Source: an uncultured Bacteroidia bacterium (GTDB taxonomy: Bacteria; Bacteroidota; Bacteroidia; Bacteroidales; F082). From it: a stretch of 64,000 bases of DNA. Positions within the stretch are counted from its first letter, which is position 1. Each line of letters begins with the position of its first letter. Shown piece by piece: positions 18,791 to 26,282 of this stretch. Position numbers and translations under genes: made by a program. The notes below the pieces were generated by a model. That model ran no database searches. It was not told where the DNA came from and worked only from the letters and a program-made list of their open reading frames with translations. The stretch is from assembly GCA_902801465.1 (NCBI GenBank), contig CADCIH010000012.1, positions 1 through 64,000 on the forward strand, written 5' to 3'.

Positions 18791-20578
18791 TCACTTTACG
18801 TCTGCGATTAACCGAGCAAGACTTGCGATAGCTTCTTGATTGTTTTGTTCAGCCGCTTTTTTATACCAATATTTAGCTTTTTCAATATCTATTTCTTTCA
18901 CGCCCTTCCCTTTTTCATAACAATAACCTAATCTGCATTGAGCCAAATCAAATCCGTATTGTGCCGCAATTGAATAATAACCTACTGCTGTCGAAGCACT
19001 TCCAAATCCAATTTCCCCATTCTCATACATTAGTCCAATTCTATACATTGTACTCCTATATAATTCGAAATCCTCTTTTCTTTCAGATGCCTTATTATAC
19101 CAATGAAAAGCTTGAATATAATCCTGATCACACCCTTTTCCATGATAATAGCAATCTCCTAAAGCGACTTGTGAATAAACACAACCTTGTTCAGCTGATT
19201 TCTTAAACCATTCAAACGCCTTTTGTTCATCTTTCTCAACAGCAACACCCTTTTCATAGTAGATACCTAGATTATGCTGAGCTTGTTCATAACCTTGTTC
19301 GGCAGCTTTCTGATACCATTCAAATGCCTTTTTTTCATCTTTCTTAACAGCATAACCATTTTCATAGCATACGGCAAGATTATGCTGAGCATGTGCGACT
19401 CCTTTTTCCGCCGCTATTTTGTAACACACAAATGCGTATAATTCATTGTTATCTACACCGATACCAAAAAAATAGCATACGCCAAGAGAGTGTTGTGCAT
19501 CAGCGAAACCTTGTTCAGCAGATTTCTTATACCACTCAAATGCTCTTTTCTCATCTTTCTCAACCCCAATACCATATCTATAACACTGGCCCAGGAAATA
19601 CTGTGCCTCGGCACACCCCTGTTCGGCTGCTTTTTTACACCATTCAAAGGCTTTCTTTTCATCTTTCTCAATAACTTCCCCTTTTAGATAGAAAACGCCA
19701 AGAGCTAACTGCGCCCCGTCATACCCCTGTTCTGCGGATTTCTTGCACCATTCAAAAGCTATTTTCTCATCTTTTTCAACACCTACACCATTAGCATAAC
19801 ATGAGCCAGTATTATATTGTGCTTGAGCTAGCCCCTGTCTCGCAGATTTCAAATACCAATAAAATGCTTTGTTGAATTGTTGGTGCTCAAAATAATAGTA
19901 ATCTCCCAAGGCTAATTGCGCATTTGGATTCCCAATTGCTGCACGTAATCTAGTGAATACGTTGTCATAAAATCTGTGCTCTGCATCCCATAATAAGTGC
20001 ATCATCTCTGCATAATCAAGAATTTCAAGATCAGAAAAACGCAAAGCGACTATCTGGCCCAATAATTCATAAATATCAGAATATAAAGGTATTATAACCT
20101 CCATAATACTCCTCATCTCTATAGAGTTCTCTTCAGAAACAAGACGCTCAATATCATTTACTAAATCACATCCTAATGCAGAAACAACCGTTTCAACATC
20201 TCTAAGACAAAACAAATACTCTTGAACAATTGACTCCATCTTTTCAGATAATTCATTTTGTCTGGATGACAGCAATAACATCTTTAATCTATTCCATTTA
20301 GCATTGACATCTCTGACTATTGATTGTAATTGATTTTGGATAGCAATCAAGCCATTACTATCCACTTCCTTTTTATTAATAATTGCGATAGCATTATTAA
20401 GAACAGCATTGATTTCACCAACGCTAATGGAATCACACAATTCAATACAAGATTGCTTGAGTATTTCATTTTGCTTTTGTCTATGCCACAAAACACTCAA
20501 AAGAGCTACAATAGCCCCAATTACAGCAGCAATTATACTTACTATTGTCCAAACCAATCCATTTACAACAATTAACAT
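18791..20578 (-). CDS. Membrane-anchored Sel1-repeat protein
   Basis: A 595-residue protein from the ATG at 20578. One N-terminal transmembrane helix (~3-25) and a helical coiled region (~30-200) are followed by about ten Sel1-like repeats of ~36 residues (pattern AFEWYKKSAEQG-A-AQ--LG-CY--G-GVEKDEK). Sel1/SLR proteins are alpha-solenoid scaffolds that hold protein complexes. The gene is visibly more A+T-rich than its neighbours, which suggests separate acquisition. It interrupts the CsgG/LPP20 cassette, 19 bp upstream of the FGE-fold gene and 69 bp downstream of the next CsgG-like gene. Confidence 0.85.
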   Translation of the reverse strand: MLIVVNGLVWTIVSIIAAVIGAIVALLSVLWHRQKQNEILKQSCIELCDSISVGEINAVLNNAIAIINKKEVDSNGLIAIQNQLQSIVRDVNAKWNRLKMLLLSSRQNELSEKMESIVQEYLFCLRDVETVVSALGCDLVNDIERLVSEENSIEMRSIMEVIIPLYSDIYELLGQIVALRFSDLEILDYAEMMHLLWDAEHRFYDNVFTRLRAAIGNPNAQLALGDYYYFEHQQFNKAFYWYLKSARQGLAQAQYNTGSCYANGVGVEKDEKIAFEWCKKSAEQGYDGAQLALGVFYLKGEVIEKDEKKAFEWCKKAAEQGCAEAQYFLGQCYRYGIGVEKDEKRAFEWYKKSAEQGFADAQHSLGVCYFFGIGVDNNELYAFVCYKIAAEKGVAHAQHNLAVCYENGYAVKKDEKKAFEWYQKAAEQGYEQAQHNLGIYYEKGVAVEKDEQKAFEWFKKSAEQGCVYSQVALGDCYYHGKGCDQDYIQAFHWYNKASERKEDFELYRSTMYRIGLMYENGEIGFGSASTAVGYYSIAAQYGFDLAQCRLGYCYEKGKGVKEIDIEKAKYWYKKAAEQNNQEAIASLARLIADVK

Positions 20579-20647
20579 ATAAAATTGATAAACACTTCTA
20601 ATCAACAAATAACTATTGCAACAGCTTATCCTACTCTCTATATTTAA

Positions 20648-21523
20648 TTACAAATCATGAACTAGAATCAAAAATCCTCTCTCATATTCACACTTAATTT
20701 TGTCTCCAGACTTTTCCCAGAATTCTGTATATCTATTATAAATACCCCATGAACCAGGTAAAGTAAGCCTATAACCATCACTTTTCCATCGTTCTAATGT
20801 GAATTTAATTGTGATTAATTCAGATCGCGTAGGTATTCTCCAACCAGAAGCGTTTCCAAATCTTGCAGATTGCGCAGTCTCCATTGCTTCCCTCTTACTA
20901 CACATCGGATGAGATGTAGTCACCCACAAATCTCCAATTCTGACATATCCATTTATTAATGCAGACTCCAACATCGCTTCTGTTTCTTTCCGTTCTTTTT
21001 CTCTTTTTGCATTCTCTTCTTCTTGTTTTCGCTGCCTTTCAGCCTCCTTAGCCGCCTTTTCTTGGACGGTCTCTGCTGTCAAGTCTTTGGCCAATTTAGA
21101 GCACACGGATTTCATTTCATCCATATTGCTTAATGCACTATTCATGTTTGATGTGTTAAGAATTTCAGCGGTTTCTACATCAATCAATCTGGCTGAAACA
21201 TAATTCTCTCCAAACACCTCCGTTATTTCGGCAACACATACCAACTGCACACCGAATTGTTTTCCCAAACGGGATAGCTCATTGTCATCAACGGCACCCG
21301 TCCTTTGGTAACCTTGTTCCTTGCTAAGTTCTGAGAGGAAACTTGTAGTTCTTTCTATGGCGATATATTTCCCATCATTTGCAAAAGACGATACCAATTG
21401 GTCTCCTAACACTTTGGTTATTCCCGATTGTTGTCCTGTAACATAAACTGCGACTTTCTTTTGTTGTGCCATTGAAGTCATTGACAACACGAGCAATAAA
21501 AGGATAAACACTTTAGTTTTCAT
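20648..21523 (-). CDS. Secreted CsgG/LpoB-like protein with coiled coil and FISUMP-like tail
   Basis: A 291-residue protein. Signal peptide to MAQ (~20); CsgG/LpoB-like domain ~21-150 (KKVAVYVTGQ, GYQRTGAVDDNELSRLGKQFG, ARLIDVETAEIL), more divergent than the other two paralogues. A strongly charged coiled coil follows (~150-190, alternating Glu/Lys/Arg), then a ~100-residue C-terminal domain (IGDLWVTTSHPM, GWRIPTRSEL) reminiscent of FISUMP/DUF1566 modules. It starts 20 bp after the upstream gene. Confidence 0.72.
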   Translation of the reverse strand: MKTKVFILLLLVLSMTSMAQQKKVAVYVTGQQSGITKVLGDQLVSSFANDGKYIAIERTTSFLSELSKEQGYQRTGAVDDNELSRLGKQFGVQLVCVAEITEVFGENYVSARLIDVETAEILNTSNMNSALSNMDEMKSVCSKLAKDLTAETVQEKAAKEAERQRKQEEENAKREKERKETEAMLESALINGYVRIGDLWVTTSHPMCSKREAMETAQSARFGNASGWRIPTRSELITIKFTLERWKSDGYRLTLPGSWGIYNRYTEFWEKSGDKIKCEYERGFLILVHDL

Positions 21524-21543: not shown

Positions 21544-22572
21544 TTACAATTTAATATTCTCTTTCAATAAGTTACTGATTTCCTTGCTCACCTTTTTGTA
21601 GCCATCGCGGGCAGCCTCTTCGAAACCGAAGGTATGTGAGCCTTTCACCGAGATTTCATCCTCGAAAATGCGCTGGCCGGTAGCGTTTTTGTCGATGGCG
21701 ACGGCGGCATCCACATAACTGAAATAAGCCGAGCCACCGGCAGTGTTCATTCTGTTGTACTCACGCGCCGAGGCATCTATTTGGATGATGTAGTCGGCAA
21801 CGGTAGGATCGTCCACGAAGTTGCATCCCGAGGCCGACAGTTCGCCTTTCACTTCGTTTTGTAGTTTGACGTACTTTTTCCCGAAAATGTCGGCATTGCA
21901 CACCACGCAATACGTGGTGCCGTGCTCCAGTTCTGCCAATTTCGCTTTCACAATCTGCTCCAAGCGGTTCATCTCATCCAACAATGGTTGCAATTGATAT
22001 TGGGACATTCCAAACACGTTGATCCAAAAGAACGACTTACCAGCTCCGTCAAACTGAGGCTGCACGTTTTGTAGTTCCGTCTTGGCTTTCGTCTTGAAGC
22101 CCGTACTGATGTAATTATCGGCAATGCGCAAAGCGTTGTTGATTTTGCTGATGCGCATTTGGATGTCGTTCTTGTAATAGTTACATGCAGCCTCCTTATT
22201 AATATATACGATAGCATACCATTTTTCGGATGCAGGGTCGAAATGTGTCCGTGTTTCGGCAAGCTGCATGTCAACATCGGTGGAAACATTACGCATCGAA
22301 GTGTAGAGAATGCTGGAACGCCCGTCTACGACATTCTTGTCCATTTGGCTCACCTCGGCTACCCGCACTTGGATCTGCTTGGAGAGATTGGTGCGAGCCA
22401 AGTCCAAGAGGTCATTCTTGAACTTGGCTTCACTCAGGTTTTGGCTGTTGCTTCCATGTTCGATATCATGGAAATAGGCATCGGTGGTGTAGCGCATCCA
22501 TTCTGAAGGATAATTCTGAGCCTTAAGTTGTAGGGATGCAAGCAACAGTAATACAATTAATAATCGGTTCAT
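21544..22572 (-). CDS. Secreted LPP20/FlgT-like protein
   Basis: A 342-residue protein with a signal peptide to LKAQ (~19). The N-terminal half (ARTNLSKQIQVRVAEVSQMD, AETRTHFDPASEKWYAIVYINKE) fits an LPP20/FlgT-N-like domain. A helical segment follows, then a C-terminal domain with VVCNADIFGKKYVKLQNEVKG and ISVKGSHTFGFEEAARDGYKK that may bind other envelope proteins. It starts 2 bp after the lipoprotein gene, so the two are cotranscribed. No enzymatic motif is seen. Confidence 0.65.
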   Translation of the reverse strand: MNRLLIVLLLLASLQLKAQNYPSEWMRYTTDAYFHDIEHGSNSQNLSEAKFKNDLLDLARTNLSKQIQVRVAEVSQMDKNVVDGRSSILYTSMRNVSTDVDMQLAETRTHFDPASEKWYAIVYINKEAACNYYKNDIQMRISKINNALRIADNYISTGFKTKAKTELQNVQPQFDGAGKSFFWINVFGMSQYQLQPLLDEMNRLEQIVKAKLAELEHGTTYCVVCNADIFGKKYVKLQNEVKGELSASGCNFVDDPTVADYIIQIDASAREYNRMNTAGGSAYFSYVDAAVAIDKNATGQRIFEDEISVKGSHTFGFEEAARDGYKKVSKEISNLLKENIKL

Positions 22573-22574
22573 CT

Positions 22575-23201
22575 TCAGTTGCCTTTAGCAGCATTCATGA
22601 TGGATTTGTTTGTTTCGATGAACTTTTCGAGGTCATCACCGCTGAGATTAGAGGGTTTAAAATTGCCTGCTGAGTTAAGCAGTTGCTGAAAACGCTCGCC
22701 CTTGATGCCCACTTTGGCGGTGACAGTGTACATCTTCGTTGAAGGGCTGTACTCGATTTTAGTGTCGCCAATCGGTTCGCAAGCGTTCTGGATGGTTGCA
22801 CTCACCTGTTTCCAGTGTGAGGTGAGTGCTTTTTGCACATCGCCGTTGTTGGCTACAGTTCCTCGCTCCGACTCGGCCAGTACTGCATTTTCAATGATGC
22901 GTGAAATGGTGGCTCGGGCTTCCAACTCAGCCATTTCGATTGCGGTCTGTTTGTCGTTGGCTTTGCCAATCCCAGCATACCATTTGTATGGCACTTTCAC
23001 CATCTTGGTGCCATCATCGTTGAGTGCTTCCACCATTTCAATGCCATAAAGTTTGGTGGTTTCCACAACTACCTTTTCTCCTTCGAGACTTCTTTCTTTG
23101 TCGATTCTCGATTCAACAACTGTGCTTTTTTGGCTGCCGCAAGAAGCCAGCATAAAAATGGCGGCAAAAGCTAATCCGCTCAATAGAACACTTTTTTTCA
23201 T
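22575..23201 (-). CDS. LPP20-like lipoprotein
   Basis: A 208-residue lipoprotein with lipobox LASC (~residue 21) followed by GSQKS. The LPP20-like domain runs ~50-200 (YGIEMVEALNDDGTK, WYAGIGKANDKQTAIEMAEL, ARATISRIIENAVLAESER, YTVTAKVGIKGERFQQLL). It is a paralogue of 15339-15905. It is the first gene of the cassette; the structured RNA region lies about 110 bp upstream. Confidence 0.78.
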   Translation of the reverse strand: MKKSVLLSGLAFAAIFMLASCGSQKSTVVESRIDKERSLEGEKVVVETTKLYGIEMVEALNDDGTKMVKVPYKWYAGIGKANDKQTAIEMAELEARATISRIIENAVLAESERGTVANNGDVQKALTSHWKQVSATIQNACEPIGDTKIEYSPSTKMYTVTAKVGIKGERFQQLLNSAGNFKPSNLSGDDLEKFIETNKSIMNAAKGN

Positions 23202-23310
23202 AATAGATTAAATCTGATTTTAGTATTTATAATATTGATAATCAATATTTTTTTCATTTTTCCGTCAAATACCCAAACCCGGAATGAAACATTTCCATTT
23301 TTTTTGCTAC

Positions 23311-23559
23311 ATACAAAAAGAAAGCGGGGTATCTTTCGTCTGTTTGAATGTGGCTTAAGGTCCTGAGAAACCCGTGTAACACAACAAACAGATGGGATAC
23401 CCACGCTTTAGTACGCGAGCATCTACCTCTGCCATGTTTTCGTGTTACACTTATAGAATTTCTCAGGTTCTAAGCCACCAAAACAAAGCTCGGCAAACGC
23501 CTTCTTTCAATATGTATGTCTCCTCCTTAACAACCATAAAAGGTTGCAATCCGGAATTA
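23311..23559 (-). ncRNA. Candidate structured RNA (small RNA or leader) with competing pairings
   Basis: Read on the minus strand, 23478 to 23350 forms a long hairpin with three helices: TAAGCCAC/GTGGCTTA (8 bp; 23471-23478 with 23350-23357), TTTCTCAGG/CCTGAGAAA (9 bp; 23459-23467 with 23362-23370) and GTGTTACAC/GTGTAACAC (9 bp; 23442-23450 with 23374-23382). The loop part 23385-23409 is also complementary to the tail 23321-23346, giving a nested A-B-A'-B' layout. A -7 element lies at the 5' side and a short hairpin plus T run (from ~23320 downward) at the 3' side, implying a ~250-nt transcript. A 6S-like RNA or an attenuator for the downstream cassette are both possible; the family is not identified. 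Confidence 0.6.
23463..23510 (-). CDS. Possible 15-residue leader peptide
   Basis: A TTG-started frame reading MKEGVCRALFWWLRT and then stop. It is preceded 10 bases upstream by AAGGAGGA (23521-23528), a strong Shine-Dalgarno-like sequence that is unusual in this phylum. The frame ends inside the first arm of the structured RNA. It may be chance; included because its position would suit an attenuator. Confidence 0.2.
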   Translation of the reverse strand: MKEGVCRALFWWLRT

Positions 23560-23565
23560 ACGATG

Positions 23566-23573
23566 CAAATATA
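23566..23573 (-). promoter_or_regulatory. Promoter -7 element for the structured RNA
   Basis: Minus strand TATATTTG, a full match to TAnnTTTG. Transcription would start near 23559. No good -33 TTTG is visible. Confidence 0.5.
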
Positions 23574-23684
23574 AATAAAAAAAGCTAATAATAAAAGTGC
23601 GTTTTTAAAAATCTAAGACATGGATTGTCTTAAAAATGAAAAACAAAAGGAAAGGAGCGAAATCATCATTGGCGGTGGTGGATC

Positions 23685-24998
23685 CTAGGCGAGCAGTTCT
23701 CCTTCAATCGACAGCGCCGTCGCCGAAATCACCTTCACCGTCACGATTTGTCCGATCAAGCTCTCGTCCTGCGAAGCAAACCGAATCACAATCTTGCCCT
23801 CGGTGTGGCCGGTGAGGTAGCCGCTCTTGCGGTCGTAATCCTCAACGAGCATCTTCACGGTGGTGCCGACCAAAGCCTGATTATATATTAATGAGTGCTT
23901 CATTAATTCTTCGGTGAGGCGGTGATAACGCTGGCGTTTCACCTCTTTCGGCACGTCGTCTTCCCACTTTGAGGCCACGGCGCCTTCGCGTACGCTATAC
24001 TGGGCGATGTAAGCCATGTTGTACTTGAACTCCTCCATGGCCTTGCGGGTGTTCTCGAACTCCTCCTCGCTCTCGTGGGTGAAGCCCACGATGATGTCTG
24101 TGAAGATGGTGGCGGTGGGCAACACACGTCGGATGGTCTGGATGATGTGGCGGTAACGCTCCAGGTTGTGGTGACGGTTCATGCGTTGCAGCATCACGTC
24201 GTCACCCGACTGTATCGGGATGTGGATCTGCTTGGCGAGGCAGTCATATTGGGCCATCACCTCGATGATCTCGTCTTCCATGTCGCGGGGATGCGGGGCG
24301 GTATAATAAACCCAGAACTCTTTTCCAGAGGCCTTGCCGTATTCACCGATGCGGCGCAACAGCTCGGCGAAATTAATCTCTTCACCTTTCTTGTCGAGAC
24401 CGTAAGAGTTGACATTCTGCCCCAACAAGGTGATGCTCTTATAGTCTTTCTCCACCAATTCTTTAACCTCAGCCAAAATCTCTTCCGATGGCCTCGATAC
24501 CTCTCTGCCTCGGGTATAAGGCACGGCGCAGTAGGTGCAGAAGTTGTTGCAGCCGTTCTGAATAGGGATGTAGGCTTCGAAGCTGGAGGCGCGCATCGGG
24601 TTGATCTCCCAGAAAGGCTCCATGTTAGCCGAGGGGTTCACCTCTTTCGTCGGAGTGACCACGCCGTATTGGCGAATCAACTCGGGCAGGTTGGGCAGCT
24701 CGTTCATGGTGAACACCAGGTCGAACAGCTTCAAGAAACGCACTCTGTCGGCGGGCAAGATGCAACCTGAGACAAAAGTGATGACGTTCTTGCGATTCTT
24801 CATGGCGTTCCATTTCTCGATACGCCCGTACACCTTGTCGATGCCTTTCTGTCGTACCGAGCAGGCTACGATGCCGAGGATGTTGGCTTCCTCTTCGTTG
24901 TCGGTGGGCTCATAGCCCATCTGTTGCAGCACAGTGCGCACACGCTCCGTGTCGCTGAGGTTCATCTGGCATCCGAAGGGGAGGAGAAAGTATTTCAT
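23685..24998 (-). CDS. miaB: tRNA-2-methylthio-N6-dimethylallyladenosine synthase
   Basis: A 437-residue radical-SAM methylthiotransferase from the ATG at 24998 (MKYFLLPFGCQMNLSDTERV). The N-terminal cluster cysteines lie in FGCQMN, VACSVRQ and VSGCI. The radical-SAM motif is CNNFCTYCAVPYTRGRE, and a TRAM domain closes the protein (TVKMLVEDYDRKSGYLTGHT). The MiaB subgroup is indicated by FGCQMNLSDTE. An in-frame extension upstream translates a short tandem repeat and is rejected. Confidence 0.92.
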   Translation of the reverse strand: MKYFLLPFGCQMNLSDTERVRTVLQQMGYEPTDNEEEANILGIVACSVRQKGIDKVYGRIEKWNAMKNRKNVITFVSGCILPADRVRFLKLFDLVFTMNELPNLPELIRQYGVVTPTKEVNPSANMEPFWEINPMRASSFEAYIPIQNGCNNFCTYCAVPYTRGREVSRPSEEILAEVKELVEKDYKSITLLGQNVNSYGLDKKGEEINFAELLRRIGEYGKASGKEFWVYYTAPHPRDMEDEIIEVMAQYDCLAKQIHIPIQSGDDVMLQRMNRHHNLERYRHIIQTIRRVLPTATIFTDIIVGFTHESEEEFENTRKAMEEFKYNMAYIAQYSVREGAVASKWEDDVPKEVKRQRYHRLTEELMKHSLIYNQALVGTTVKMLVEDYDRKSGYLTGHTEGKIVIRFASQDESLIGQIVTVKVISATALSIEGELLA

Positions 24999-26205: not shown

Positions 26206-26282
26206 TGGTAGTCTCTCCGGGATTTGAACCCGAGTTACCAGGATGAAAACCTGACGTCCTGACCAGACTAGACGAAGAGACC
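26206..26282 (-). tRNA. tRNA-Glu (UUC)
   Basis: A 77-nt cloverleaf with encoded CCA. The 7-bp acceptor stem is GGTCTCT/AGAGACT, the anticodon stem TCAGG/CCTGG has loop TTTTCAT (anticodon TTC), and the T arm contains GGGTTCAAATCCC. It has its own promoter and terminator. The tRNA overlaps a spurious open frame. Confidence 0.95.

Follow-up and report, generated by a model that had tools for sequence, protein, structure and literature searches.

What does an interval of ~480 nt without a recognised gene encode, when it lies on the minus strand between a miaB-type gene and a downstream operon and is dense in self-complementary sequence? It forms part of the window, by which we mean the whole 64,000-nt stretch of Bacteroidales DNA analysed here. 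An initial annotation had read the interval as a structured RNA with two mutually exclusive long pairings and had offered three identities: a 6S-like regulator, a pseudoknotted small RNA or an attenuator for the operon. Here we describe a family of RNAs, roughly 300 nt long, with a conserved core of ~155–250 nt (helices P4a–c, hairpin P5 and pseudoknot B). The core has three covarying, mutually exclusive pairings and, in most copies, follows a promoter box and precedes a reading frame on its own strand. The reading that we prefer, at a probability of roughly one half, is that of a cis-acting, attenuator-like leader RNA that would switch expression of the next gene.

Locus and flanking genes

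The miaB-type gene (minus strand, ending at 23685) carries Radical_SAM, UPF0004 and TRAM domains in Pfam. The downstream operon begins with three minus-strand genes: gene 1 (22575–23201) has a lipoprotein-like N-terminus by eye and no Pfam match at E ≤ 0.01, gene 2 (21544–22572) matches TraT under the cut-off of that family, and gene 3 (20648–21523) scores 20.6 bits against CsgG, for which the cut-off is 20.8. The label CsgG/LPP20, by which the operon was initially known, is therefore weak. Behind these genes, on the same strand, lies the gene of a 605-aa Sel1-repeat protein (18791–20608). A 19-codon ATG frame, MKKILIINIINTKIRFNLL (23198–23257, minus strand), starts 2 nt past the 3′ hairpin of the element, and its TGA shares nucleotides with the following ATG. 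The frame forms the 3′ part of a longer one with a GTG start (23198–23404) that crosses the RNA. By overlapping the start of gene 1, this short frame could couple translation to the leader.

When the whole window was compared with Rfam 15 at the gathering score, a tRNA at 26209–26282 was the sole match. At E ≤ 1, the region 22800–24000 gave one sub-threshold lncRNA match, on the plus strand and outside the element, and 40 homologous loci likewise gave matches outside the element only. A tmRNA was rejected, only a tRNA having been found in the search, and a known riboswitch or small RNA was rejected because the element itself matches no Rfam family. None of the open-literature titles and abstract starts searched names this RNA; an entry in a published catalogue is possible.

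Architecture of the element

All coordinates of the element refer to the minus strand. At its 5′ end is TATATTTG (23566–23573), a sequence match to the TAnnTTTG-type box of Bacteroidota sigma-A, the spacing of which predicts a transcription start near 23561. A hairpin directly past the predicted start (GCAACC/GGTTGT, 23530–23547) varies in sequence among copies. Strand 0, AAAGAAGGCG (23498–23507), can form 10 bp with CGCTTTCTTT, the terminal part of strand 3 (−11.1 kcal/mol), and this pairing is present in the minimum-energy fold; strand 0 also overlaps a local hairpin, GGCGTTTGCC (23492–23501). The three helices of 8, 9 and 9 bp that had been annotated over 23350–23478 are all present: P4a (GTGGCTTA/TAAGCCAC, 23471–23478 with 23350–23357, 8 bp), P4b (CCTGAGAAA/TTTCTCAGG, 23459–23467 with 23362–23370, 9 bp) and P4c (GTGTAACAC/GTGTTACAC, 23442–23450 with 23374–23382, 9 bp).

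Enclosed by P4 are strand 1, GATGCTCGCG (23414–23423), and strand 2, CGTGGGTATC (23396–23405), which together form hairpin P5 (10 bp, −12.8 kcal/mol). Strand 2 is also the partner, in pseudoknot B, of strand 3 (B′), GATACCCCGCTTT (23321–23333). This 2:3 pairing (AAAGCG.GGGTATC/GATACCC.CGCTTT) comprises 13 bp with one bulged T (−18.2 kcal/mol) and is lengthened by 7 bp between CTGTTTG (23385–23391) and CAAACAG (23340–23346), partners that, by eye, co-vary in some copies. The loop-to-tail pairing of the initial annotation thus exists, with its one bulge, as 20 bp (7 + 13) separated by an internal loop instead of the claimed more than 20. The initial observation was real and understated. The loop strand has a third, local partner (GATGCTCGCG with CGTGGGTATC).

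Directly 3′ of strand 3 is a T-rich, terminator-like tract (23314–23324); a box before the hairpin and a T run after it had both been annotated correctly. The extent given for the element, 23311–23573, is too short: the conserved unit continues through a 3′ hairpin (23260–23284), the loop of which holds strand 4, GGGTATTTG (23266–23274). Strand 4 can pair with GATACCC of strand 3 (7 bp, −8.8 kcal/mol), so that strand 3 as a whole may pair with strand 2, with strand 4 or, through its 3′ part, with strand 0. The pairings form a chain, 1:2, 2:3 and 3:4, in which the first two share strand 2 and the last two share strand 3; mutually exclusive helices of the kind that define a transcription attenuator are therefore present in the leader. 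The minus-strand RNA folds at −96.3 kcal/mol (z = −7.75; 0 of 200 shuffles as good), compared with z = −2.74 for the plus strand, for which 0 of 200 shuffles were likewise as good.

A family of copies in Bacteroidia

BLAST against the own genome found, besides the window copy, three others, each 72–77% identical to it, and a covariance model found eight copies. A strict DNA pattern derived from two conserved blocks retrieved 60 stretches from named genomes. Of these, 59 belong to records titled Prevotella, Prevotellaceae, Bacteroidaceae, Bacteroidales or Bacteroidia, and many derive from ruminant samples. The Xanthomonas stretch (L088) and a viral contig (L093) were excluded as chance pattern matches, so the tally stands at 59 of 60 for genome stretches and at 0 of 1 for viral ones. 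This left 63 distinct pattern copies, of which 59 with a 5′ anchor were placed in alignments A1 (18 copies) and A2 (41 copies).

A covariance model built from 18 copies (R1) found the element in 65 of the 173 family genomes, which belong to a single genus out of 16, and in 50 of 393 genomes of the order, in 32 of 206 genera. A third alignment, A3, covers 99 of 151 loci with 103 matches (101 distinct rows), and the model built from these 103 aligned matches (R2) detected the element in 92 of 99 genomes from the genus, the highest number of matches in one genome being 18. When five candidates were scored per genome, R2 matched 107 of 393 genomes of the order (60 of 206 genera); it further matched 17 of 295 genomes of the class, 11 of which lie outside the order, and 5 of 296 genomes of the phylum, all inside the class. 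The low count at phylum level also argues against frequent false R2 matches.

Between the anchors, the copies fall into two size classes, one of 155–187 nt and one of 231–249 nt, the latter with an extra hairpin domain in the P5 loop. Several loci bear more than one copy. In two species a more diverged copy lies in tandem just upstream of an intact one (L010:1839–1993 and L026:1215–1374), one stretch holds two near-identical RNA-plus-gene units in succession (L147:1265–1413 and 2390–2538), and in another a second, divergent copy follows ~0.8 kb downstream (L048:7634–7788). A decayed copy was also seen (L184, G020:C10, ~2400–2560 of the reversed stretch), in which the 5′ half runs straight into the 3′ flank (TGTAGC...GTTACA), as though the middle part were lost by deletion.

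Covariation of the helices and the alternative pairings

Across the 101 distinct rows of A3, 93.1% of the 3020 cells of P4a–c and P5 are paired, and 28 of the 31 pairs have changes on both sides. Double-changed cells number 776, against 193.9 in shuffles and 99–135 in slid controls; the relatedness of the rows inflates significance and the alignment was itself fitted to the model structure, so the size of the effect weighs more than the shuffle count. A less striking measure, the number of further pair types, gave 88 against 82.7, a value of 88 being reached in 22 of 500 shuffles. By helix, both sides have changed in all counted pairs of P4a (6 of 6; 97.2% of cells paired), P4b (9 of 9; 92.3%) and P4c (6 of 6; 89.5%), and double changes occur in 7 of the 10 pairs of P5 (93.6% paired). 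Compensatory changes, for which the initial annotation had recommended a homologue alignment, are thus found in P4a–c and P5. A G–U pair is retained in 70 of 91 copies. Each P4b strand is flanked by short stems with mostly conserved letters, and a possible loop–loop contact of P4b is no more than weakly supported.

The alternative pairings were assessed by swapping strands among copies. Because the strand letters of the main class hardly vary, this was done on 40 divergent copies, namely those of the 82 distinct strand-2/3 pairs that lack the invariant main-class letters. Native partners paired more stably than swapped ones in all three cases, with mean energies of −14.0 versus −11.3 kcal/mol for 1:2, −16.4 versus −13.0 kcal/mol for 2:3 and −10.3 versus −8.1 kcal/mol for 3:4; in each case, 0 of 5000 permutations reached the native value. 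Single swaps were better than the native partner in 17.6% (1:2), 18.6% (2:3) and 29.7% (3:4) of cases, and a poor 3:4 rank is seen in a minority of the 40 (for example, L117, L142, L048 and L148). The B and B′ strands change together in divergent copies, which supports the pseudoknot as first proposed. Strands 3 and 4 likewise change together, examples being CAATCCC/GGGATTG, CACCCA/TGGGTG and GATTCCCG/CGGGAATC. Strand 4 sits in a hairpin loop, mostly 20–45 nt downstream of strand 3; by eye, it was not recognised in several copies (L003, L007, L008, L021, L024, L038, L049 and L090). Helix covariation and the strand-swap test together strongly support the claim that a functional RNA lies here outside any protein gene.

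Promoter box, U tract and the following frame

In 81 of 101 copies the 170 nt preceding the core contain a TAnnTTTG box, whereas mononucleotide shuffles predict 10.0 such copies; the boxes are concentrated 60–110 nt before the core. Within 70 nt downstream of the core, the same box is found in 4 of 101 copies (5.3 expected). PMC9723704 gives TAnnTTTG as the consensus recognised by sigma-A of a flavobacterium at positions −12 to −5. At the other end of the core, at least 8 T in 11 nt are present in 80 of 103 copies, compared with 101 of 6901 background 11-mers, three of the 11 positions belonging to the model itself. A GC-rich helix directly before a U tract, the arrangement of a terminator, is accordingly present in those 80 copies and missing from the 23 others, which have no U-rich tract; L118, L135, L142, L144, L149 and L151, all of one sub-type, are among the poorest.

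A same-strand frame of at least 60 aa starts within 260 nt of the core in 110 of 120 copies, the other 10 having none. In a rough mirror control, diverging frames on the 5′ side were counted in 49 of 120 copies, an inexact comparison given that these frames start 60–320 nt beyond that side. In this setting the RNA reads as the leader of the next gene. The distance from core to frame has a median of 68.5 nt and an interquartile range of 49–78 nt, with the start taken as the earliest in-frame ATG, which in some copies (for example, L011, L021, L022 and L106) lies upstream of the likely start. A preliminary count of first genes gave 87 on the same strand and 12 on the opposite strand out of 99, with four more copies having none; some of the 12 look mis-called (L007 and L062).

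Genes behind the RNA

Pfam was scanned with 60 of the 110 first genes, chosen for variety. Twenty-four have no match at E ≤ 0.001, six are Acyl_transf_3, and the remainder are of many kinds, among them MBOAT, GDSL lipases, a glycosyltransferase, CotH, WG repeats, zinc ribbons, a response regulator, a restriction enzyme and two DNA methylases. Some look like housekeeping genes, for instance the S-adenosylhomocysteine hydrolase of L038, a copy without strand 4 in which the gene seems to have a promoter box of its own. Overall, the genes behind the RNA include acyltransferases, secreted proteins, restriction and defence genes, and plasmid cargo. The element has a conserved core and platform-like strands, but a shared ligand-related pathway, as would mark a riboswitch, was not found among these first genes. 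The lack of a common pathway disfavours an ordinary metabolite riboswitch and favours a general signal or antitermination.

Ten first genes were suspected of a role in defence, and seven of these have PADLOC matches at E ≤ 0.001; two are strong matches to SspB, and the match of L132 is weak. The RNA stands before SspB-type defence genes (DUF4007) in L122 and in L156, the latter a locus of the own genome (G000:C6). In one species the RNA heads a ~10.7-kb run of eight same-strand genes (L183:2455–13136, G033:C4); in a relative that is 96% identical in the flanks, the only trace of the run is a remnant of the last gene, 82% identical. The eight-gene operon starts with a lipoprotein-like gene, includes weakly ZorA-like and weakly ZorB-like proteins and a below-cut-off DUF4357, and ends with a DNA/RNA non-specific endonuclease; it is possibly an undescribed defence system. 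By eye, its first gene also has a homologue in the own genome, where it follows the RNA copy on C17 (L004).

One locus, with uvrB (by eye) as the upstream gene, carries the RNA before different genes in different species, and this raised the idea of an integron-like cassette site. The idea was rejected when four species were compared there and no clean cassette exchange was seen: one has the eight-gene run behind the RNA, its relative keeps the remnant of the last gene, and in a third the RNA is decayed. The difference between relatives is consistent with a deletion or with another version of the operon.

Copies on plasmids and phages

The window copy gave no BLAST match to phages and plasmids. 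A divergent copy, L149, matched seven records of a plasmid collection (from Bacteroides uniformis, B. finegoldii, Phocaeicola massiliensis, Parabacteroides distasonis and an oral Prevotella) and three phage records; L118 matched the same seven plasmid records, and L147 and L128 matched none. R2 confirmed the element in all six of the plasmid records examined. On the B. uniformis plasmid pBUN1 (NZ_AP019725.1; L178:5096–5250), the RNA is flanked by a mobV relaxase gene on one side and a cargo beta-lactamase gene on the other. On a P. distasonis plasmid, AAA ATPase, toprim and hypothetical genes precede it and a DUF4433 gene follows directly; as an exception, the next annotated gene of one P. distasonis plasmid starts 380 nt away.

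A proposed attenuator-like leader and its alternatives

The order of promoter, bistable core, U tract, strand 4 hairpin and start codon fits a transcription attenuator-like leader. Among the three identities first offered, an attenuator fits best, given the frame within 260 nt in 110 of 120 copies, the promoter box before the core and the U tract after strand 3; the earlier restriction to the downstream operon does not hold, as this is a family-wide device used before many genes. In the proposed mechanism, strands 1 and 2 would be transcribed first and fold into P5. As long as P5 held strand 2, the polymerase would pass strand 3 and the U tract, and after read-through the strand 4 loop would capture strand 3 and the gene would be transcribed. 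If strand 2 instead paired with strand 3, the resulting GC-rich helix before the U tract would cause termination, leaving a short RNA and an unexpressed gene. The structured P4 core presumably acts as the sensor of an input (a ligand, a protein, or the state of the polymerase or ribosome) that would set the balance. Termination cannot be universal, because 23 of 103 copies lack a U-rich tract. Nor can 3:4 itself decide termination, because strand 4 is made after the U tract; the 3:4 pairing may be a lock on the open state or a translation step.

Such a translation step could also be the whole function: 3:4 pairing near the start region would open or close ribosome access, with the core reading a small molecule or protein. 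The distance from core to ATG (interquartile range 49–78 nt), the covariation of strands 3 and 4, and one sub-type that has lost the U tract and keeps the other helices all suit a translational switch, and yet the U tract is strongly enriched elsewhere and is needless for translation control alone; we hold this to be distinctly unlikely. Processive antitermination or relief of polarity, by an RNA that stays with RNA polymerase and crosses terminators or resists Rho in long, poorly translated accessory operons, would account for the unrelated genes behind the RNA (surface-type acyltransferases, restriction and defence genes, plasmid cargo) and for its place at the head of the eight-gene run that a close relative lacks. 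However, that run is one closely examined locus, and exclusive pairings with a U tract resemble a decision point more than a single fixed fold, which leaves antitermination unlikely in our judgement. The U tract could also mark the end of a free-standing small RNA that acts in trans, strand 3 pairing with loops that resemble strand 4 in other mRNAs from the same genome. A separate TAnnTTTG box seems to precede the next gene in a few of the copies that lack strand 4 (L023, L038, L049 and L090), and strands 3 and 4 are nearly alike among three main-class copies of the own genome (L001, L002 and L004); strand 3 nevertheless covaries with the strand 4 of its own locus, and a same-strand frame follows in nearly every copy, making action in trans improbable.

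The RNA fold would be incidental if the element acted at the DNA level, either as a miniature transposable element or as a site at which cargo inserts. Genomes do carry many copies, plasmid and phage records hold copies as well, and one locus has the same RNA before different next genes in different species; against this, compensatory changes keep the helices and the alternative pairings, including the G–U pair, the fold energy is strand-specific, and the difference at that locus fits deletion or replacement within an operon. We judge a DNA-level feature very improbable. A miniature element or transposon end in the strict sense was rejected, near-identical dispersed copies not being found (the three other BLAST copies of the own genome are 72–77% identical to the window copy) and the helices being compensated, and with it falls the initial concern that the region might be a transposon-end palindrome present in many copies. 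A 6S RNA-like regulator of RNA polymerase would share the long irregular hairpin of similar length; we give this identity practically no credence, as no Rfam family matches the element at E ≤ 1, genomes carry many copies, nearly always before a frame, and the pseudoknot covaries.

A broader reading, which we consider rather unlikely, is that of a class-wide, general-purpose expression-licensing RNA. One leader architecture would have spread among the genes of Bacteroidia, plasmids and mobilizable elements included, so that arbitrary accessory operons (defence, surface glycan, secreted proteins and cargo) would answer a single cellular signal by way of a pseudoknotted four-strand switch. A single signal driving all copies would show how newly acquired genes join host control in Bacteroidia. 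The element adds an apparently abundant structured RNA family, largely attached to accessory genes, to a major gut phylum, and since its carriers include culturable species, the input signal and the mechanism can be tested there.

Comparison with known systems

Trp-type transcription attenuators are leaders with 1:2, 2:3 and 3:4 pairings. The present element resembles them in its four strands, in the opposition of 1:2 plus 3:4 to 2:3, in its position as a leader between promoter and gene, and in its U tract. It differs in that the U tract follows strand 3 and not strand 4, in that 2:3 is a pseudoknot wrapped round P4, and in that the downstream genes are not of one pathway. The EAR RNA of B. 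subtilis, which we take to be the epsC motif, and the phage put RNA are processive antitermination RNAs, smaller than this element and without a chain of exclusive pairings. Like EAR and put, the element is a structured cis RNA of surface-polysaccharide or mobile operons; no Rfam family matches it. JUMPstart/ops leaders, which are read by RfaH, mark accessory and surface operons, as this leader does, but are short, whereas the covarying core here spans 155–250 nt.

In the table of PMC2864571, the epsC motif is listed as RF01735, JUMPstart as RF01707, and the GUCCY-hairpin motif of Bacteroidetes and Proteobacteria in a row without an Rfam number. In Prevotella-type copies, a GTCCG...CGGAC stem is common in the 3′ hairpin, and either that motif or the HMP2 candidates (PMC8040213) could contain a fragment of this family; compared by description and not by alignment, neither source has an RNA of this layout in its accessible descriptions (PMC8040213 and PMC2864571). 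The orphan riboswitch candidates of PMC7266159, as far as the accessible part of that source describes them, share with this element a conserved complex core and an alternative pairing before a gene; unlike those candidates, the genes here have no shared pathway and the RNA is absent from Rfam 15. Cis-acting switching leaders as such are already known; what appears new here is a pseudoknotted layout of four strands that stands before unrelated genes, most of them accessory.
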